Assembly (NCBI GenBank): GCA_902577515.1
Contig: CACGZJ010000012.1
Coordinates: 1 to 40,676, forward strand
Direction of reading: 5' to 3'
Origin: an uncultured Bacteroidota bacterium
GTDB taxonomy: Bacteria; Bacteroidota; Bacteroidia; Flavobacteriales; Flavobacteriaceae
DNA length: 40,676 nt
Shown: piece by piece, positions 18,356-24,887 of the stretch
How the letters are laid out: every line of letters begins with the position of its first letter
Numbering within the stretch: position 1 is the stretch's first letter
Notes under the pieces: generated by a model
The model's input: the letters and a program-made list of their open reading frames with translations, nothing else
Told to the model about the DNA's origin: nothing
Databases searched by the model: none
Made by a program: the position numbers and the translations under genes

Positions 18356-19333
18356 TTAGAATTGATTATTTTGATAATCAAGATTGCTATGATTAGATTT
18401 AAGAGACTCGATAAAATCAACTTTTAATTTACTAACCAGATCTTTAACGCTAGGATTATCATTTATTGAACTAACACCATGACCAGCTGACCATATAGTT
18501 TTCCATGCCTTAGCTTCAGCCTCAGCCATATCTTTACCAAAGTCAATTTTTTTCGAATCATTCCACACTTCTTCCGTAACACCCATAGCTTCAAGACTAG
18601 GTCTTAGAAAATTAGCATGAACTCCAGAGACTGCAGCCGTGTATACTATATCCTCAGCTGAAGAGTTAATAATCATATCTTTATAGGCTTGCTCTGCAAG
18701 ACTTTCTTTTGTATTAATAAATCTTGTACCCATATACGCAATGTCAGCACCCATTTGAAGGGCTGATGCTACATCTCTTCCATTTGATATACACCCCGAA
18801 AGAATGATTGTTTTGTTAAAAAATTCTCTAATTAGAGATATCATAGCCATAGGATTTTTTAAACCTGCATGACCACCAGCACCTGCAGTTACAAGAACTA
18901 AACCATCTACATTTGCCTCAGCAGCTTTTTCAGCATGTCTTTTCTTTATTATGTCATGATAAACTAATCCGCCATAACTATGAATTGCGTTTACAATATC
19001 AGGAACTGCACCTAATGAAGTTATAATCATAGGAACTTTATGCTTTACACATATATCTAAATCAGCTTTAATTCTAATATTAGATGGATGAACAATAAGG
19101 TTTACGCCAAATGGTGCAGGCTTAATACCTGTCTTTTTCTCATAATCAGCCAATTCATCTTTTATTTGAATAACCCATTCTTCGAAACCTTCAGATGTTC
19201 TTTGGTTTAAAGCTGGAAAAGTTCCAACTATTCCGTTTTTACAACACTCAATTACAAGTTTTGGCCCAGAAATCAAAAAAAGGGGTGCTGCAATTACAGG
19301 CATGTTTAAATCTTTATAAAAATTTTTATCCAT
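18356..19333 (-). CDS. Nitronate monooxygenase-like FMN flavoprotein (NPD family)
   Basis: 325 residues from MDKNFYKDLNMPVIAAPLFL. This start overlaps the upstream stop by 8 bases (ATGGATAA) and is preferred over the ATG at 19366. The TIM-barrel NPD signatures are seen: MPVIAAPLF, FGVNLIVH, ITSLGAVP, the GLVLVTAGAGGHAG loop around the FMN phosphate and catalytic-His region, ILSGCISNGRDVASALQMGADIAYMGTRFI, and the closing WSAGHGVSSI. Enzymes of this family oxidise alkyl nitronates such as propionate-3-nitronate, although many members have other or unknown substrates. It is the last gene of the sulfatase cluster, with no obvious catalytic link to desulfation. Confidence 0.88.
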   Translation of the reverse strand: MDKNFYKDLNMPVIAAPLFLISGPKLVIECCKNGIVGTFPALNQRTSEGFEEWVIQIKDELADYEKKTGIKPAPFGVNLIVHPSNIRIKADLDICVKHKVPMIITSLGAVPDIVNAIHSYGGLVYHDIIKKRHAEKAAEANVDGLVLVTAGAGGHAGLKNPMAMISLIREFFNKTIILSGCISNGRDVASALQMGADIAYMGTRFINTKESLAEQAYKDMIINSSAEDIVYTAAVSGVHANFLRPSLEAMGVTEEVWNDSKKIDFGKDMAEAEAKAWKTIWSAGHGVSSINDNPSVKDLVSKLKVDFIESLKSNHSNLDYQNNQF

Positions 19334-19784
19334 TATTTCTCTTTTTACATGACCATTCAAATTCAAATTCAGAGACTAAGTCTCCTTCTTCATCATACCC
19401 TCTAGCTTTTAACCAAGCTTTTGAAGTTATATTTTGAATAGTCGAATTAATTAATTGTTTAGCTACTTTACCTTCACTACAAGTAAAAGTTATTTTACCT
19501 ACTGCCTTTTTATGAAAGCTTGATTTATTGCTTACTAGAAGCATTGAGATATTAGCATTAGAATCTTGAATACATTTTGTAAGTAACATCCCTGTAGTTA
19601 ATTCTGCAGCCATACCCTGAACTGCCCAAAACATTGATCTGTATGGGTTCTGGTTAATCCATTTGAACCTTACTTTAACTTCACATTTATCTCCATTTAT
19701 TAAAGTAAGCCTCACCCCAGTTAGCCATGCAGCAGGAAGATTTAAAAACATCCATCTATTTATTTTACTTGGTGTATATTTCAT
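19326..19784 (-). CDS. DUF4442 hotdog-fold protein, possible thioesterase
   Basis: 152 residues matching the DUF4442 (PaaI-like hotdog) family: an N-terminal SKINRWMFLNLPAAWLTGVR, the central helix segment NPYRSMFWAVQGMAAELTTG, and a C-terminal strand set ending SEFEFEWSCKKRN. Related hotdog proteins hydrolyse acyl-CoA thioesters, but activity has not generally been shown for DUF4442. No signal peptide is present, so it is cytoplasmic. The start overlaps the stop of the FGE-like gene by 4 bases (ATGA), and its stop overlaps the flavoprotein start by 8, so translation is coupled on both sides. Confidence 0.85.
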   Translation of the reverse strand: MKYTPSKINRWMFLNLPAAWLTGVRLTLINGDKCEVKVRFKWINQNPYRSMFWAVQGMAAELTTGMLLTKCIQDSNANISMLLVSNKSSFHKKAVGKITFTCSEGKVAKQLINSTIQNITSKAWLKARGYDEEGDLVSEFEFEWSCKKRNNG

Positions 19785-20356
19785 TTTGTTAAAATACTAA
19801 ATCCAATGTGAATATTACCAGTTTCTTTATCTACATACAATTCTCTATCCTCTTGGGTTCCATGACAAGTATCTATAGAACAAAAAAGGGAACCACCTGC
19901 TAATCTTACTTGATCTGAATTAACAGGCTCTGTAATATCCCATACATTTCCAATAATATTTACAGATTTAACAGCAGATATTGGATACATATTATCAGAG
20001 ATTATTATCCTGTCATCTGAGGATACAAGCTCCCAATACTCTTTATAAGTAGGAAGACGAACGCCTGCCCATTTACAATACTCAATTACATCATTGTAAC
20101 TTACTTGTGTAACAGGTAAACTATCAATTGATTTATTAATACCATCTGGATATATCCAATTTGCACCATTTACAACTTTATAATCATAAACATTCTCTTG
20201 AACAAATGACCAACCATACTCTTCGGCGCTAGTTATGTATCCAGTTTCGTTAATAAACTCCTTAAACTCCTTGACTGAAACAGTCCTAAGATTATAATCT
20301 ATTTTAGATGTGCATGAAATTAAAACTAGGGATAAGATCAGTAAGATTTTTTTCAT
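19781..20356 (-). CDS. Compact lipoprotein of the formylglycine-generating enzyme (FGE/SUMF1) family
   Basis: 191 residues with a lipoprotein signal (LVLISC, Cys15). The FGE-sulfatase fold is recognisable: FINETGYITSAEEYGWSFV (31-52), VTQVSYNDVIEYCKWAGVRLPTYKEYWEL (82-110, listed in part), NIIGNVWDIT (133-142), and the key segment AGGSLFCSIDTCHG with Cys159 and Cys164. That Cys-x4-Cys spacing and the preceding GGS equal the copper-binding catalytic pair of true FGEs (Cys336/Cys341 in the human enzyme). FGE converts the Cys of CxPxR in sulfatases to formylglycine. The protein is much shorter than the usual 270-300 residues: the loop region between about 110 and 130 is nearly gone. It directly follows three Cys-type sulfatases. 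Activity is inference; a structural or scaffold role remains possible. Confidence 0.8.
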   Translation of the reverse strand: MKKILLILSLVLISCTSKIDYNLRTVSVKEFKEFINETGYITSAEEYGWSFVQENVYDYKVVNGANWIYPDGINKSIDSLPVTQVSYNDVIEYCKWAGVRLPTYKEYWELVSSDDRIIISDNMYPISAVKSVNIIGNVWDITEPVNSDQVRLAGGSLFCSIDTCHGTQEDRELYVDKETGNIHIGFSILTK

Positions 20357-20357
20357 A

Positions 20358-21974
20358 TTAATTATATATAAATCTTTTATCTAATTCCTCCGAGTCTCTA
20401 TACTTGATCCTAAGTTCCTTTAATTCTTTAGTTAATTGGATAACAATATCCTTATAATTAGGATCATTATAAACATTATTCATTTCATTTGGATCATTTT
20501 TACGATCATATAATTCCCACTCATCAATATCATAATAAAAGTGAGTAAGTTTATAATCTTTATTAACTATTCCGTAGTGTCTCTTTGCCATATGGACAGA
20601 AGGATACTCATAATAATGATAATAAACTGATTCTCTATTCCATTTGCTAGAATTTCCTTTTAATAACGGTAAGAGACTTTCACCCTGCATATCTTCTGGT
20701 ACTTCAATCATTGCAGCCTCTAAAAAAGTTTGGGCAAAGTCAAGATTTTGGACCATTTCCTCATTTGTTGTTCCAGGTTTAATTTGATTAGGCCATTTAA
20801 TCATTAGTGGGGTTTTGAAAGACTCATCATAAATAAACCTCTTATCAAACCATCCATGTTCACCAAGATAAAATCCTTGATCTGAAGTGTAAACAACTAT
20901 AGTATTTTTATCAAGCCCCGTCTCTTCAAGATAGTCTAAAACCCTACCTACGTTATCATCTACAGATGAAATGGTTGCCAAATAATCTTGCATATATCGT
21001 TGAAACTTCCATTGCATTTTTTCCTTATTGTTCATTTTTGGCCAATTAGCTTCAAAATCTTTACTAATCTTGTCTAGAGTAACGTCATATTTTTTCTTTT
21101 GTTCCTTGTTAGCTCTATTATATCGGTTATTAAATGAATTGGAGCTTGGCTCAAAAAAGGTTCCATCACCTCTAGCATAAACAATTTTTGGCTCTACGTT
21201 TTCCATTTTTTCAAATACTGATGGACGAACTTTGCTGTCTTGCATGTATTGCATATGAGTTAGTAGATTCATCTCAGCAGTTTTTGCAGCGGTACCCCTA
21301 TTAGAGTAGTCATCATAAAGAGTTTCTGGTTCAGGAAACTTTTTATTATAAAATTCAGCAAACTTTTCTGGACTTGGCCACCATGCCCTATGAGGAGCTT
21401 TGTGAAGATAAAATGTCAAGAAAGGCTTGTCATCATCTCTTTTATTTTTAAACCAATCTAATGTTAAATCGGTGATAACATCAGTTACATATCCAGTAAT
21501 AATTGTATCCTTCTCTCTTCCTAAGAATCTAGGATTGATATAGTCTCCTTGACCGGGAAGAATGAGAAAATCATCTATGCCTTTGGGATTATTTCCAAAG
21601 TGAAGTTTTCCAAACATAGCTGTTTGATATCCATTCTTTTTAAATAGTTGAGGAAAGGTCATTTGAGAGTCATCAAATTTTGCAATGTTGTCTATTTTTC
21701 CATTGATGTGACTGTGTTTACCAGTTAATATAACTGCTCTTGAGGGTGCACATATTGAATTTGTCACAGAGGCATTAGTAAACAACATTCCTTGATCTGC
21801 AATTCTGTCAATGTTTGGAGTTTGAATTAGCCTATCATCATAAGCGCTGATTGCCTGATAAGCGTGATCGTCAGACATTATGAATAATATGTTAGGTTTT
21901 ACACCGTCTTCTTTTTCACAACTGGTTCCAAGAAAAATACTAAATATTACGACTGTAAATAGCTTTCTAATCAT
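20358..21974 (-). CDS. Lipoprotein sulfatase, Cys-type (third of cluster)
   Basis: 538 residues, alkaline-phosphatase fold of sulfatase family S1. The lipobox is LGTSC with Cys19, followed by E-K-E-D, an acidic run that resembles the lipoprotein export signal for surface display in Bacteroidetes. Metal ligands Asp35/Asp36 (MSDDHAY), the formylglycine site Cys75 in SICAPSRAVILTG, GKLHFG, and TSDQGFYLGEHGWFDK complete the active site. The central segment (about 200-310) is highly charged. The C-terminal part ends in a DUF4976-like domain (YELYDRKNDPNEMNN-like layout). Relatives include iduronate-2- and GlcNAc-6-sulfatases; the exact substrate cannot be read. Its start shares one base with the previous sulfatase stop. 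Confidence 0.9.
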   Translation of the reverse strand: MIRKLFTVVIFSIFLGTSCEKEDGVKPNILFIMSDDHAYQAISAYDDRLIQTPNIDRIADQGMLFTNASVTNSICAPSRAVILTGKHSHINGKIDNIAKFDDSQMTFPQLFKKNGYQTAMFGKLHFGNNPKGIDDFLILPGQGDYINPRFLGREKDTIITGYVTDVITDLTLDWFKNKRDDDKPFLTFYLHKAPHRAWWPSPEKFAEFYNKKFPEPETLYDDYSNRGTAAKTAEMNLLTHMQYMQDSKVRPSVFEKMENVEPKIVYARGDGTFFEPSSNSFNNRYNRANKEQKKKYDVTLDKISKDFEANWPKMNNKEKMQWKFQRYMQDYLATISSVDDNVGRVLDYLEETGLDKNTIVVYTSDQGFYLGEHGWFDKRFIYDESFKTPLMIKWPNQIKPGTTNEEMVQNLDFAQTFLEAAMIEVPEDMQGESLLPLLKGNSSKWNRESVYYHYYEYPSVHMAKRHYGIVNKDYKLTHFYYDIDEWELYDRKNDPNEMNNVYNDPNYKDIVIQLTKELKELRIKYRDSEELDKRFIYN

Positions 21975-23371
21975 TATTGTTTCAAATCTATTAATAAATC
22001 CTTTGCAATTATTAAATCTCTTTTATGTTTTTTTGTAATCTGATCAATTTTATCCAGAATATCAAGGTTATCTTCATAGATATTATTGTCCTCTGAAGGG
22101 TCATTATCAAGATTATATAAAAATGGTGTTTTAAGAGTTTCCATTGGTTTTCCATCATATGCCTCGTGTAACTTGAGGTGTAATTTATGAGACTTATATC
22201 TCACTGCCATTAGTTCTGACCCCCAGTAATAAAAAAAACTTTCGGTCGGACTTTTAGATAACGATTTAAAAACATTACTTAAGTTATTGCCATCAATTAT
22301 TCTATCATTAGGAACTTCGACATCAGCCAAATAACTGAAGGTTGTAAATAAGTCCATAGATGTTCCAATATCATCAACTACACCTGGCTTAATATAACCT
22401 GGGCCCCAGATTACTGTTGGAACTCTAATACCTCCCTCCCATGTTGAACCTTTTCCTCCTCTTAATATACCAGCGGTTCCTCCTTCTTCGCCCATTTCTA
22501 GCCAAGGACCATTCTCGGATGTAAATACAATAATTGTTTTATCCGATAAGCCTAACTTTTTGATTTTATTAATAATTTCTCCAACACCATAGTCTATTTC
22601 TTCTATAACATCCCCATAGGGACCTGCAATTGATTTGCCCTCAAACATCTCAGATGAAAATAAAGGAACGTGAGGCATACTGTGAGCTAAATAAAGGAAG
22701 AAATTATCATCACTGTTTTCTTCAATAAACTTTAATGATTCATTAAGATATCTTTTAGTTAATGTTCTTTGATTAACAGGTCTCTCAATAATTTTATTAT
22801 CAAATATTAACGGGACATTAAAATTGTTGTAATTTTTTCTCTCATCACTCTTCCACATATCCCAGTAATTCATATTTGATACATTATCCATGTCATTTGA
22901 ATAGGGCAATCCAAACCATGAGTCAAATCCATGATTAATGGGAAAATACTCTTCTTTATTTCCTAAATGCCACTTTCCCACTAATTTCGTTTTATAATTT
23001 GATTTCTTGAGTTGTTCAGCAATTGTTATTTCAGATTGGGGAATGCCATTCAAGGAATTTGGGAATAAGACACCTCTCGTATTACTTGTTAGTCCGGTTC
23101 TTAGTGGAAGTCTACCAGTTAAAAGTGCAGCTCTACTGGGAGTACACACACTGGCTCCAGCATAAAAATTTGTCCATTTTTGTCCCTCAAATGCCATTTG
23201 GTCAATATTAGGTGTTCTTATATTATTATTTCCAAAAACACCTATGTCACCATATCCAAGGTCGTCAGCTAGAATAATAATAATGTTAGGTAGATTAGAT
23301 TTAGAATCATTTGTGATACATCCAATTAGCATGAATTGAATGAGTATTAGAAATCTAATTTTATTTATCAT
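21974..23371 (-). CDS. Lipoprotein arylsulfatase-like sulfatase, Cys-type (second of cluster)
   Basis: 465 residues. Lipobox LIGC with Cys18. Sulfatase S1 motifs are Asp36/Asp37 (LADDLGYGDIG), Cys76 in SVCTPSRAALLTGR (formylglycine site), GKWHLG with Lys133 and His135, and HSMPHVP with His230. Where most members have SDNGP, this one has TSENGPW, so the usual calcium-ligand Asp is Glu286. The GGIRVP segment and C-terminal LYNLDNDPSEDNN are typical of arylsulfatase A/galactosamine-6-sulfatase relatives. It hydrolyses sulfate esters, probably of algal or host glycans, outside the cytoplasm. It overlaps the first sulfatase by 11 bases. Substrate unknown. Confidence 0.9.
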   Translation of the reverse strand: MINKIRFLILIQFMLIGCITNDSKSNLPNIIIILADDLGYGDIGVFGNNNIRTPNIDQMAFEGQKWTNFYAGASVCTPSRAALLTGRLPLRTGLTSNTRGVLFPNSLNGIPQSEITIAEQLKKSNYKTKLVGKWHLGNKEEYFPINHGFDSWFGLPYSNDMDNVSNMNYWDMWKSDERKNYNNFNVPLIFDNKIIERPVNQRTLTKRYLNESLKFIEENSDDNFFLYLAHSMPHVPLFSSEMFEGKSIAGPYGDVIEEIDYGVGEIINKIKKLGLSDKTIIVFTSENGPWLEMGEEGGTAGILRGGKGSTWEGGIRVPTVIWGPGYIKPGVVDDIGTSMDLFTTFSYLADVEVPNDRIIDGNNLSNVFKSLSKSPTESFFYYWGSELMAVRYKSHKLHLKLHEAYDGKPMETLKTPFLYNLDNDPSEDNNIYEDNLDILDKIDQITKKHKRDLIIAKDLLIDLKQ

Positions 23372-24887
23372 TTTCTAGAACTGGTATTATAAATATATCC
23401 ATTGATGGAGTGTTATGAGCCTCTTTCATCATATTTTCCATTTTTGTTACAATATCAGGATGCTCAGATGCAACATCATTTAACTCTTTTGAATCAACAC
23501 TTAGATTATAAAGTTTTAGTTTTGATTCGCCCTTAAACAATCCCTTCTTAATACCTTTCCATTTATCAATTCTGATAGCCTGTTGTCCACCATACGAAGG
23601 AAACTCCCAGTATAAATACTTATGTTTTTCTTGAGTTTTACCCTTTAAAGTAGGTAAAAAACTGATTCCATCTGTTTTGTATGGAGGTGATACGCCAACT
23701 AAATCAGAAACTGTAGCCAAGTAGTCATAAAATGTGCTTGGATGATTCGACTCTGACCCGGAGGGAATAACATCTGGCCAGGTAACAATTGTTGGAACCC
23801 TAATTCCTCCCTCATTTAAATTACCCTTTACTGTATTTTCTGAATTTAAAAAAGGACCAGCACTATTAAAAAAATCAATATCTACATGCTCAATATGAGT
23901 TGGACCATTATCACTTGAAAAAATAATCAGAGTATTATCATATTTTCCAATTTCTTTGAGTTTTTTTACTAATTCCCCAACCTGTTGATCTAAATATGAT
24001 ATCATTGCTGCATAAGTAGCTTTTGGATATTGGTTTGGGTAATACCCTGACCCTCCTGTATATGGCTCCTCATCTCCAAATTTTTCCTTATAATAATTAA
24101 CCCATTCAATAGGTGCTTGTAAAGGTAGATGTGGAATAGGAGAAGCATAATAAACAAAAAACTTATCATCTTTATTTTTTTCAATAAACTTTAGTGCCTC
24201 TTTATGTATTAGTGTTGGAGCATAATCTTTTTGATTATAACTATTGTAGCTTTCTTCGTTGTTAGGGTCAAGACCTATTGGTAATCTTCCTTTATTGACA
24301 ATTTTATTATCTAATATGTGTCTTTCCTTATTTTTCCATAAATGTGTAGGGTAAAATGTGTGAGCCTGTCTTTGACAGTTGTAACCGTAGAAAAAGTCAA
24401 AGCCTTTATTGTTTGGAATACTGTTGCTGTTAGGCGCACCTAAACCCCATTTACCAAACATTCCTGTTTTATATCCCTTTGATCTTAAAATGTCAGCCAC
24501 GGTTATAATTGAATCTGGCAGTGGTCTCTGTCCCTCCAATTCTGGGTTTTCAAACATAGCTTCAAAGCTCCAAACATTGCCTCTCTCTTTCCATTCATCA
24601 TTTCCTCTGATTGGATTATTTCCAGAGTGAAGACCTGTAAGAAGAATAGATCTTGAAGGAGCACATACAGGTGATCCAGTATAATGATCAGTTAAAATCA
24701 TACCGCTTTTTGCAAGTTGGTCAATATTTGGAGTTTCAATTTGTTCTTGACCTAATATTCCAATTTCTCCATATCCTAGATCATCTGCTAAAATGAAAAC
24801 TATATTTGGTAGAGTATCTTTATCTTCGGTTTTTGAACAAGAAAATGTTACTAATGATATAAAGAAAATAATTGTGTAATTCCTCAT
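23361..24887 (-). CDS. Lipoprotein sulfatase, Cys-type (first of cluster, S1_16-like)
   Basis: 508 residues. Lipobox TFSC with Cys17, then S-K-T-E-D. Motifs: Asp35/Asp36 (LADDLGYGEIG), formylglycine site Cys75 in PVCAPSRSILLTG, FGKWGLGAPNS (Gly where many sulfatases have the His of GKWHLG), SPIPHLPLQAP, FSSDNGPTH and EGGIRVP. The KWGLG form and the C-terminal LYWEFPSYGGQQAIR resemble the S1_16 subfamily, whose studied members act on sulfated galactose-type residues; I recall this from family knowledge and have not aligned it. It is the first gene of the cluster, only 14 bases from the tail of the tRNA terminator. Confidence 0.9.
   Translation of the reverse strand: MRNYTIIFFISLVTFSCSKTEDKDTLPNIVFILADDLGYGEIGILGQEQIETPNIDQLAKSGMILTDHYTGSPVCAPSRSILLTGLHSGNNPIRGNDEWKERGNVWSFEAMFENPELEGQRPLPDSIITVADILRSKGYKTGMFGKWGLGAPNSNSIPNNKGFDFFYGYNCQRQAHTFYPTHLWKNKERHILDNKIVNKGRLPIGLDPNNEESYNSYNQKDYAPTLIHKEALKFIEKNKDDKFFVYYASPIPHLPLQAPIEWVNYYKEKFGDEEPYTGGSGYYPNQYPKATYAAMISYLDQQVGELVKKLKEIGKYDNTLIIFSSDNGPTHIEHVDIDFFNSAGPFLNSENTVKGNLNEGGIRVPTIVTWPDVIPSGSESNHPSTFYDYLATVSDLVGVSPPYKTDGISFLPTLKGKTQEKHKYLYWEFPSYGGQQAIRIDKWKGIKKGLFKGESKLKLYNLSVDSKELNDVASEHPDIVTKMENMMKEAHNTPSMDIFIIPVLENDK

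Follow-up and report, generated by a model that had tools for sequence, protein, structure and literature searches.

The 191-residue protein encoded at positions 19781–20356 on the minus strand of the window (the whole 40,676-nucleotide stretch of DNA that was analysed) is probably the sulfatase maturase of the organism and, judged from its sequence, belongs to the FGE superfamily as a shortened member with a lipid anchor. FGE oxidises the Cys of the CxPxR motif to formylglycine. The best reading of the data is that this protein, here called mini-FGE, matures sulfatases after export by copper-dependent formation of formylglycine and takes the place of the normal FGE; its activity we infer. This reading was reached because the gene immediately follows a run of three sulfatase genes that overlap one another, because a Cys pair and a Ser are invariant and the predicted fold matches that of FGE, and because the clade was found with sulfatases in 11/11 surveyed carriers and with normal FGE in none. 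The distribution is the strongest evidence.

The mini-FGE frame has an ATG start and was assigned by Pfam, profile-profile alignment, and a tree. All of its neighbours described here are also on the minus strand. Sulfatase A (20358–21974, 538 aa; PF00884 at 1.9e-52, SGSH_C at 3.2e-71) has the motif CAPSR with Cys75, sulfatase B (21974–23371, 465 aa; PF00884 at 9.6e-61) has CTPSR with Cys76, and sulfatase C (23361–24887, 508 aa; PF00884 at 6.2e-55) has CAPSR with Cys75. All three thus carry C-x-P-S-R, as the original prediction had read. The mini-FGE starts 1 bp past the stop of sulfatase A, which overlaps sulfatase B, which in turn overlaps sulfatase C. On the other side, a co-directional gene for a DUF4442 protein (19326–19784) overlaps the mini-FGE stop by 4 bp. 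The 1-bp gap and these overlaps place mini-FGE in a tight co-directional gene run. In close-clade loci, mini-FGE is followed by DUF4442 and nitronate-monooxygenase-like proteins (18356–19784 in the window). The DUF4442 neighbour is conserved in the close clade and probably has no share in the function, and the link of both proteins to the sulfatases is perhaps only shared transcription.

The lipobox LISC, with Cys15 as the predicted lipidated residue (codon 20312–20314), was read in the minus-strand frame of the 191-aa chain, where the original prediction had placed it, and lipobox-like leaders are present on all three neighbouring sulfatases as well. Besides Cys15, the Cys residues of mini-FGE are Cys94, Cys159, and Cys164. 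The block GGSLFCSIDTC holds Ser156 (codon 19889–19891), Cys159 (19880–19882), and Cys164 (19865–19867), the equivalents of human Ser333, Cys336, and Cys341, of which the two Cys are copper ligands in FGE.

The Pfam family FGE-sulfatase (PF03781) matched the window protein with E 3.8e-16 (59.9 bits, cut-off 23.3), but only over residues 25–109. The same family was matched by 27/27 mini-FGE members at E ≤ 0.001. Pfam was rejected as the sole identifier of the Cys block because its match stops short at residue 109, and the block was therefore assigned by profile-profile alignment. When 27 mini-FGE rows were aligned with 14 normal flavobacterial FGEs by hhalign (probability 99.8, E 1.1e-28), GGSLFC....C fell onto GGSFLC....C and KETGNIHIGF onto PDTGSQHTGF. 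In an NCBIfam scan of mini-FGE, no family scored above its cut-off.

Relatives of mini-FGE were found in 29 loci by scanning genome contigs and are 93 to 48% identical to the window protein where the match spans most of it. They come from marine flavobacterial MAGs, single-cell assemblies, Tenacibaculum, Kordia, and Zeaxanthinibacter, and some from MAGs labelled Saprospiraceae and Flammeovirgaceae. No relative was found on viral contigs searched with the mini-FGE alignment. The residue census comprised the window protein and 26 relatives (27 rows; the frame-shifted L029 and the partial L033 and L034 were omitted). GGS-x2-C-x4-C was present in 27/27 rows, with the equivalents of Ser333, Cys336, and Cys341 invariant. 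The Cys159-x4-Cys164 pair preceded by GGS is thus where the original prediction had put it, and its loss in homologues, which had been named as counting against a maturase, was seen in no row. Profile searches of genomes gave 24 mini-FGE loci, a set that includes the window itself and several genomes also among the 29 relatives' loci; the pair was present in 23, and the remaining locus is cut by a contig end before it. The dN/dS ratio (NG86) between the window gene and five relatives was 0.09–0.14, and mini-FGE is under purifying selection. Since all 27 rows keep the motif and dN/dS is this low, the Cys-pair block is not a product of chance.

A tree was built from 53 FGE-domain proteins, including 18 mini-FGEs. 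In it the mini-FGEs were monophyletic (support 100/100) on a long stem of 2.98 changes per column, and stood apart from normal FGEs, GldK, and GGSW-type proteins. Among the matches listed in open-licence literature on exported, lipoprotein, or flavobacterial FGE, the titles and abstract openings do not name this clade. One frame-shifted mini-FGE was found, at L029:6001-6572 in MAG FRAM18_bin221. This MAG has a single sulfatase-domain match, which is without C-x-P-x-R, and the combination fits loss of use. The frameshift could reflect genuine decay or an error in sequencing.

Compared with full-length FGEs, mini-FGE has four deficits. The N-terminal 'MVxIPGGxF..G' segment and the insert that separates the AE block from the GANW block are short or missing; the distance from LPT to GNVW has a median of 35 residues vs 71, about half the normal length, and that from GNVW to GGS is 18 residues vs 48. 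Mini-FGE has 191 aa vs 286–346 aa in solved FGE chains and is without the full-size FGE core. The small size had been ascribed to the loop region between the WEL and GNVW blocks; this stretch is indeed shorter, but it is not the sole cause. The LPT–GNVW loop region holds a calcium site in human FGE.

Differences were also observed around the Cys pair. The position of Tyr340, next to the second Cys, is Thr in 27/27 mini-FGEs; it is Tyr in 13/14 normal flavobacterial FGEs and in 4/5 FGEs from IMG/VR contigs, so that this Tyr is not absolute in FGEs. Arg345 (Cys341+4) is Arg in 1/27 mini-FGEs vs 19/19 normal FGEs compared (14/14 flavobacterial), and Arg349 (Cys341+8) is Arg in 0/27 vs 18/19 (13/14 flavobacterial). 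Both of these Arg residues are of importance in human disease. An Arg at +7 from the second Cys, the residue just ahead of the Arg349 position, is invariant in 27/27 mini-FGEs and may act as a substitute. His337 is not kept in mini-FGE, and it is His in only 4/14 normal flavobacterial FGEs too. According to PMC4505483, mutation of Cys336, Cys341, Ser333, His337, or Tyr340 alters FGE activity; mini-FGE keeps three of these five residues. The 14-row census of normal FGEs omits L038, which has X residues. No Cys-pair frame was obtained from L045, which has internal stop codons, or from L051, which has no Cys. The L051 protein (303 aa, from genome G026) has a lipobox-like leader, FGE-like N-terminal blocks, and GGAFMF without the Cys pair; G026 bears sulfatase and has no normal FGE match. 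As Tyr340, both Arg residues, and the full core are absent from mini-FGE, it was filed as an FGE-superfamily variant and not as a normal FGE. As such a variant, it probably works like FGE.

AlphaFold2 with mini-FGE rows only gave a model with pLDDT 60.9, in which the Cys loop scored less than 50. After five full-length FGEs from IMG/VR contigs were added to the alignment, pLDDT rose to 77.5, with a mean of 56–63 for residues 151–170 (the Cys loop), which are thus of low confidence in both models. The five added Cys-pair FGEs (L225–L229) lie on IMG/VR contigs classed as viral. The best Foldseek match of the FGE-supplemented model was human FGE 1y1j (E 8.9e-13, TMq 0.72), and that of the model without normal FGEs in its alignment was FGE 8aru (E 1.6e-8). 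In one of the two models the human paralogue SUMF2 ranked below the human and Thermomonospora curvata FGEs and above the Streptomyces coelicolor FGEs. On the basis of these models, mini-FGE is predicted to have the FGE fold.

The predicted model thus shares its fold with human FGE (SUMF1) and the S. coelicolor and T. curvata FGEs, and the protein shares with them GGS-x2-C-x4-C, the Ser333, Cys336, and Cys341 equivalents, and the GN[VA]W block. The second Cys is followed by the closing GF after 20 residues in mini-FGE and in the human and bacterial FGEs alike. Compared with the solved FGEs, the N-terminal segment is missing from mini-FGE, as are three internal stretches; Thr replaces Tyr340, and Arg345 and Arg349 are not kept. 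SUMF2 (pFGE, 1y4j) has the FGE fold and a similar N-terminal block, but, unlike mini-FGE, no Cys pair in the aligned stretch. PorK/GldK and GldJ are flavobacterial FGE-fold lipoproteins like mini-FGE; however, they are larger and of GGSW type instead of having the Cys pair. PorK/GldK, which belongs to the gliding / type 9 secretion complex, is described in PMC12421860 as lacking both catalytic Cys. Mini-FGE does not fit this description, as the pair is present and GldK is separate in the tree. We searched 67 loci of other FGE-domain genes (Gld-type, GGSW-type, and others, from the genus, the carriers, and the relatives) for the Cys pair and found it in none; in seven of these loci, taken from the 27 carrier genomes (L212, L215, L216, L218–L220, and L223), no C-terminal block was readable and the pair pattern was absent. 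An assignment of mini-FGE to the non-catalytic SUMF/Gld lipoproteins was rejected on this absence of the pair from the 67 loci and because GldK and GGSW-type proteins form other tree groups.

The normal flavobacterial FGE (343–410 aa, L035–L050), about twice as long as mini-FGE, shares the Cys pair with it, is mostly a predicted lipoprotein, was found only with sulfatases, and likewise has a C-terminal TGxxHxGF-like end. It differs in its full-length core, in having Tyr340, Arg345, and Arg349, and in its separate tree group, and it was not found in mini-FGE genomes (0/11). A lipobox was found in 20/27 mini-FGE rows with a strict pattern and in 27/27 with a looser one, and in 12/15 normal flavobacterial FGEs (L035–L050) with the same strict pattern; these calls are pattern matches and not the output of a trained predictor. 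Among nine further mini-FGE copies, L181 had no lipobox Cys in the frame read. Because enzyme and substrates alike have lipobox-type leaders, the reaction is placed after Sec export. In PMC4505483, prokaryotic FGE is placed in the cytosol and human FGE in the ER, in contrast to the lipoprotein export predicted for mini-FGE. The original prediction was supported as regards a compact, exported homologue of FGE that is linked to Cys-type sulfatases and likely matures them, but not in the claim that this is unlike the usual cytoplasmic enzymes, since 12/15 normal flavobacterial FGEs also carry a lipobox and lipid anchoring is thus not special to mini-FGE. These leader patterns suggest that maturation after export may be common among Flavobacteriales with normal FGEs.

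The genome of the window (assembly 78% complete) contains three sulfatase-domain genes, all of them beside mini-FGE. A search of it for a second maturase, as had been proposed, yielded no other Cys-pair FGE and no anSME match in the assembled part. Its one other FGE-domain gene, L001:1390-2349 (319 aa, GGSWMD), is without the Cys pair and was ruled out as maturase on this ground. An oxidoreductase-like gene lies beside the FGE-domain gene in L001. A gene of the size and score of that in L001 is present in six genus genomes (L001, L130–L132, L305, and L306; L130–L132 were equated with genus genomes by equal coordinates), in none of them with the Cys pair. FGE-domain proteins of ~320 aa without the pair were seen in L001, L129–L132, L143, L305, and L306. 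Neither normal FGE nor anSME was found in the window's genus.

Within the 25 genus genomes, mini-FGE was found in 14/17 with a strong sulfatase (E ≤ 1e-20) vs 1/8 others (Fisher P 0.0017). Two of the three exceptions, G017 and G013, have a contig that breaks off within the gene for sulfatase A (91 and 78% identity to the copy in the window), so that the expected position of mini-FGE is unassembled there. The third, G020 (L076), has one strong sulfatase, of the CSASR type, and mini-FGE was not found. The reverse exception is G016 (L108, G016:C26), where a contig-cut mini-FGE lies at the contig start beside a TPR gene, and no sulfatase was found in this 77% complete genome; in relative L012, unlike L108, a sulfatase lies between mini-FGE and the TPR gene. 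G016 is the only mini-FGE case seen without any Cys-type sulfatase. In each of G010 and G019, 12 sulfatase-domain matches were counted, in some cases two pieces of a single gene, and mini-FGE is the sole FGE-domain match.

Sulfatase adjoined mini-FGE in 19/27 loci, of which 13 are apparently from the window's genus. Outside the genus, the adjoining sulfatases are diverse in sequence and may lie upstream of mini-FGE, downstream of it, or convergent to it, a pattern that favours a functional tie rather than inheritance of gene order. In L017 and L019, a CSASR sulfatase is convergent on mini-FGE at a distance of 9 bp. No sulfatase was nearby in 8/27 loci. The Zeaxanthinibacter genome and both Tenacibaculum genomes, which have no adjoining sulfatase, each have one C-x-P-x-R sulfatase among the sulfatase-domain genes examined. 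In Zeaxanthinibacter enoshimensis DSM 18435 (L027), which has a single mini-FGE, this is the CGPSR protein among two sulfatase-domain matches, and normal FGE was not found. The loci contain 49 sulfatase-like ORFs. The motif was present in the searched stretch of 43, each time of the Cys type, and the remaining six are truncated at a locus end.

Within the family, 299 genomes were surveyed: the mini-FGE profile matched 11 genomes in 8 genera, the profile of the normal Cys-pair FGE 133, and the sulfatase profile 200. Both kinds of FGE occurred together in 0 of the 299 genomes (0/11 mini-FGE carriers), and sulfatases were present in 11/11 mini-FGE carriers and in 133/133 normal-FGE carriers. The probability of zero overlap by chance was 3.3e-6 among the 200 sulfatase genomes and 4.9e-5 at the genus level, both values uncorrected for deeper kinship. 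Scoring was limited to the top candidates in each genome (11 for mini-FGE, 6 for normal FGE, and 5 for sulfatase), so that a gene may have been overlooked in some genomes without a match. Sulfatases of the mini-FGE loci and the window supplied the sulfatase profile, and sulfatase counts are therefore lower bounds that may favour carriers. At the thresholds used, 56/200 sulfatase genomes had neither normal FGE nor mini-FGE. Absence of normal FGE alone is thus no proof of replacement, and the family must have a further route to maturation, which may be anSME.

All candidates were scored in the 27 relatives' genomes, where the best FGE-domain match was 2.0e-51, compared with 2.5e-72 to 1.7e-87 for motif-confirmed normal FGEs. 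The anSME model TIGR03942 scored above its cut-off in 0/52 genomes, with sub-threshold matches in 5/52, the best of them in Tenacibaculum (182 of 349 bits). The 27 carrier genomes (G080–G106) overlap the 25 genus genomes, and the two sets are not independent.

The non-catalytic reuse of the FGE fold in PorK/GldK, as set out in PMC12421860, raises the alternative that mini-FGE is an accessory protein on a reused FGE fold (a periplasmic chaperone, a copper carrier, or a docking subunit), while an unrecognised maturase makes formylglycine. The loss of Tyr340 and both Arg residues agrees with such a role, and the 56/200 sulfatase genomes with neither known aerobic enzyme leave room for another system. 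However, the invariance of the Cys pair in mini-FGE, set against its absence from the 67 other FGE-domain loci, speaks against it, and nothing should keep an accessory from sharing a genome with normal FGE, which was seen in 0/11 genomes. We consider this alternative unlikely. Even less probable is that mini-FGE is a decaying relic of normal FGE, or an unrelated stand-alone protein that lies beside sulfatases by chance, as its small size, the frame-shifted L029, and the 8/27 loci without an adjacent sulfatase could suggest. A dN/dS of ~0.1 and a monophyletic group (100/100) with a long stem, present in MAGs labelled with several families, are at odds with this, as are the sulfatases in 11/11 surveyed carriers. 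Moreover, the frame-shifted copy itself comes from a genome without C-x-P-x-R in its only sulfatase-domain match.

Instead of maturing sulfatases, mini-FGE could also be an oxidase with the FGE fold that acts on a different exported Cys substrate, or an EgtB-like sulfoxide synthase. The EgtB and SenA models did match mini-FGE below threshold, but at 34.9 bits vs a cut-off of 360 they lie far under it, and EgtB folds ranked lower than FGEs by Foldseek with both models. Nor would such an enzyme account for the tie to sulfatases or for the mutual exclusion with normal FGE, and we regard it as very improbable.

Under the maturase reading, mini-FGE and sulfatase would both lie on the periplasmic face of a membrane after Sec export. 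The Cys of C-x-P-S-R in the unfolded sulfatase would join Cu(I) held by Cys159 and Cys164, and O2 would oxidise it to formylglycine as in known FGEs, whereby the sulfatase would become active. In PMC12123546, FGE is described accordingly, with two Cys holding Cu(I), the substrate Cys joining as third thiolate, and O2 as oxidant.

What is new here is a small separate clade that seems to stand in for the normal enzyme. We lean towards a broader claim, with somewhat less assurance than for the maturase role itself, namely that mini-FGE represents a second, smaller aerobic sulfatase maturase in Bacteroidota, with a lipid-anchored core of ~175 residues without Tyr340, Arg345, Arg349, and much of the scaffold, which acts post-export and has displaced normal FGE in at least 8 genera. 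If true, several residues thought important for copper-dependent formylglycine formation would be dispensable, and the Thr and the shifted Arg would form an alternative oxygen or substrate pocket. The minimal core for this chemistry would be much smaller, and textbook residues would prove replaceable. A small exported FGE would also be a possible practical tool for aldehyde tagging. The finding points to post-export sulfatase maturation in marine Bacteroidota, as opposed to the cytosol given for prokaryotic FGE in PMC4505483, and it would explain how sulfatases are activated in streamlined ocean flavobacteria, in which as many as 12 sulfatase-domain matches but neither normal FGE nor anSME were seen.
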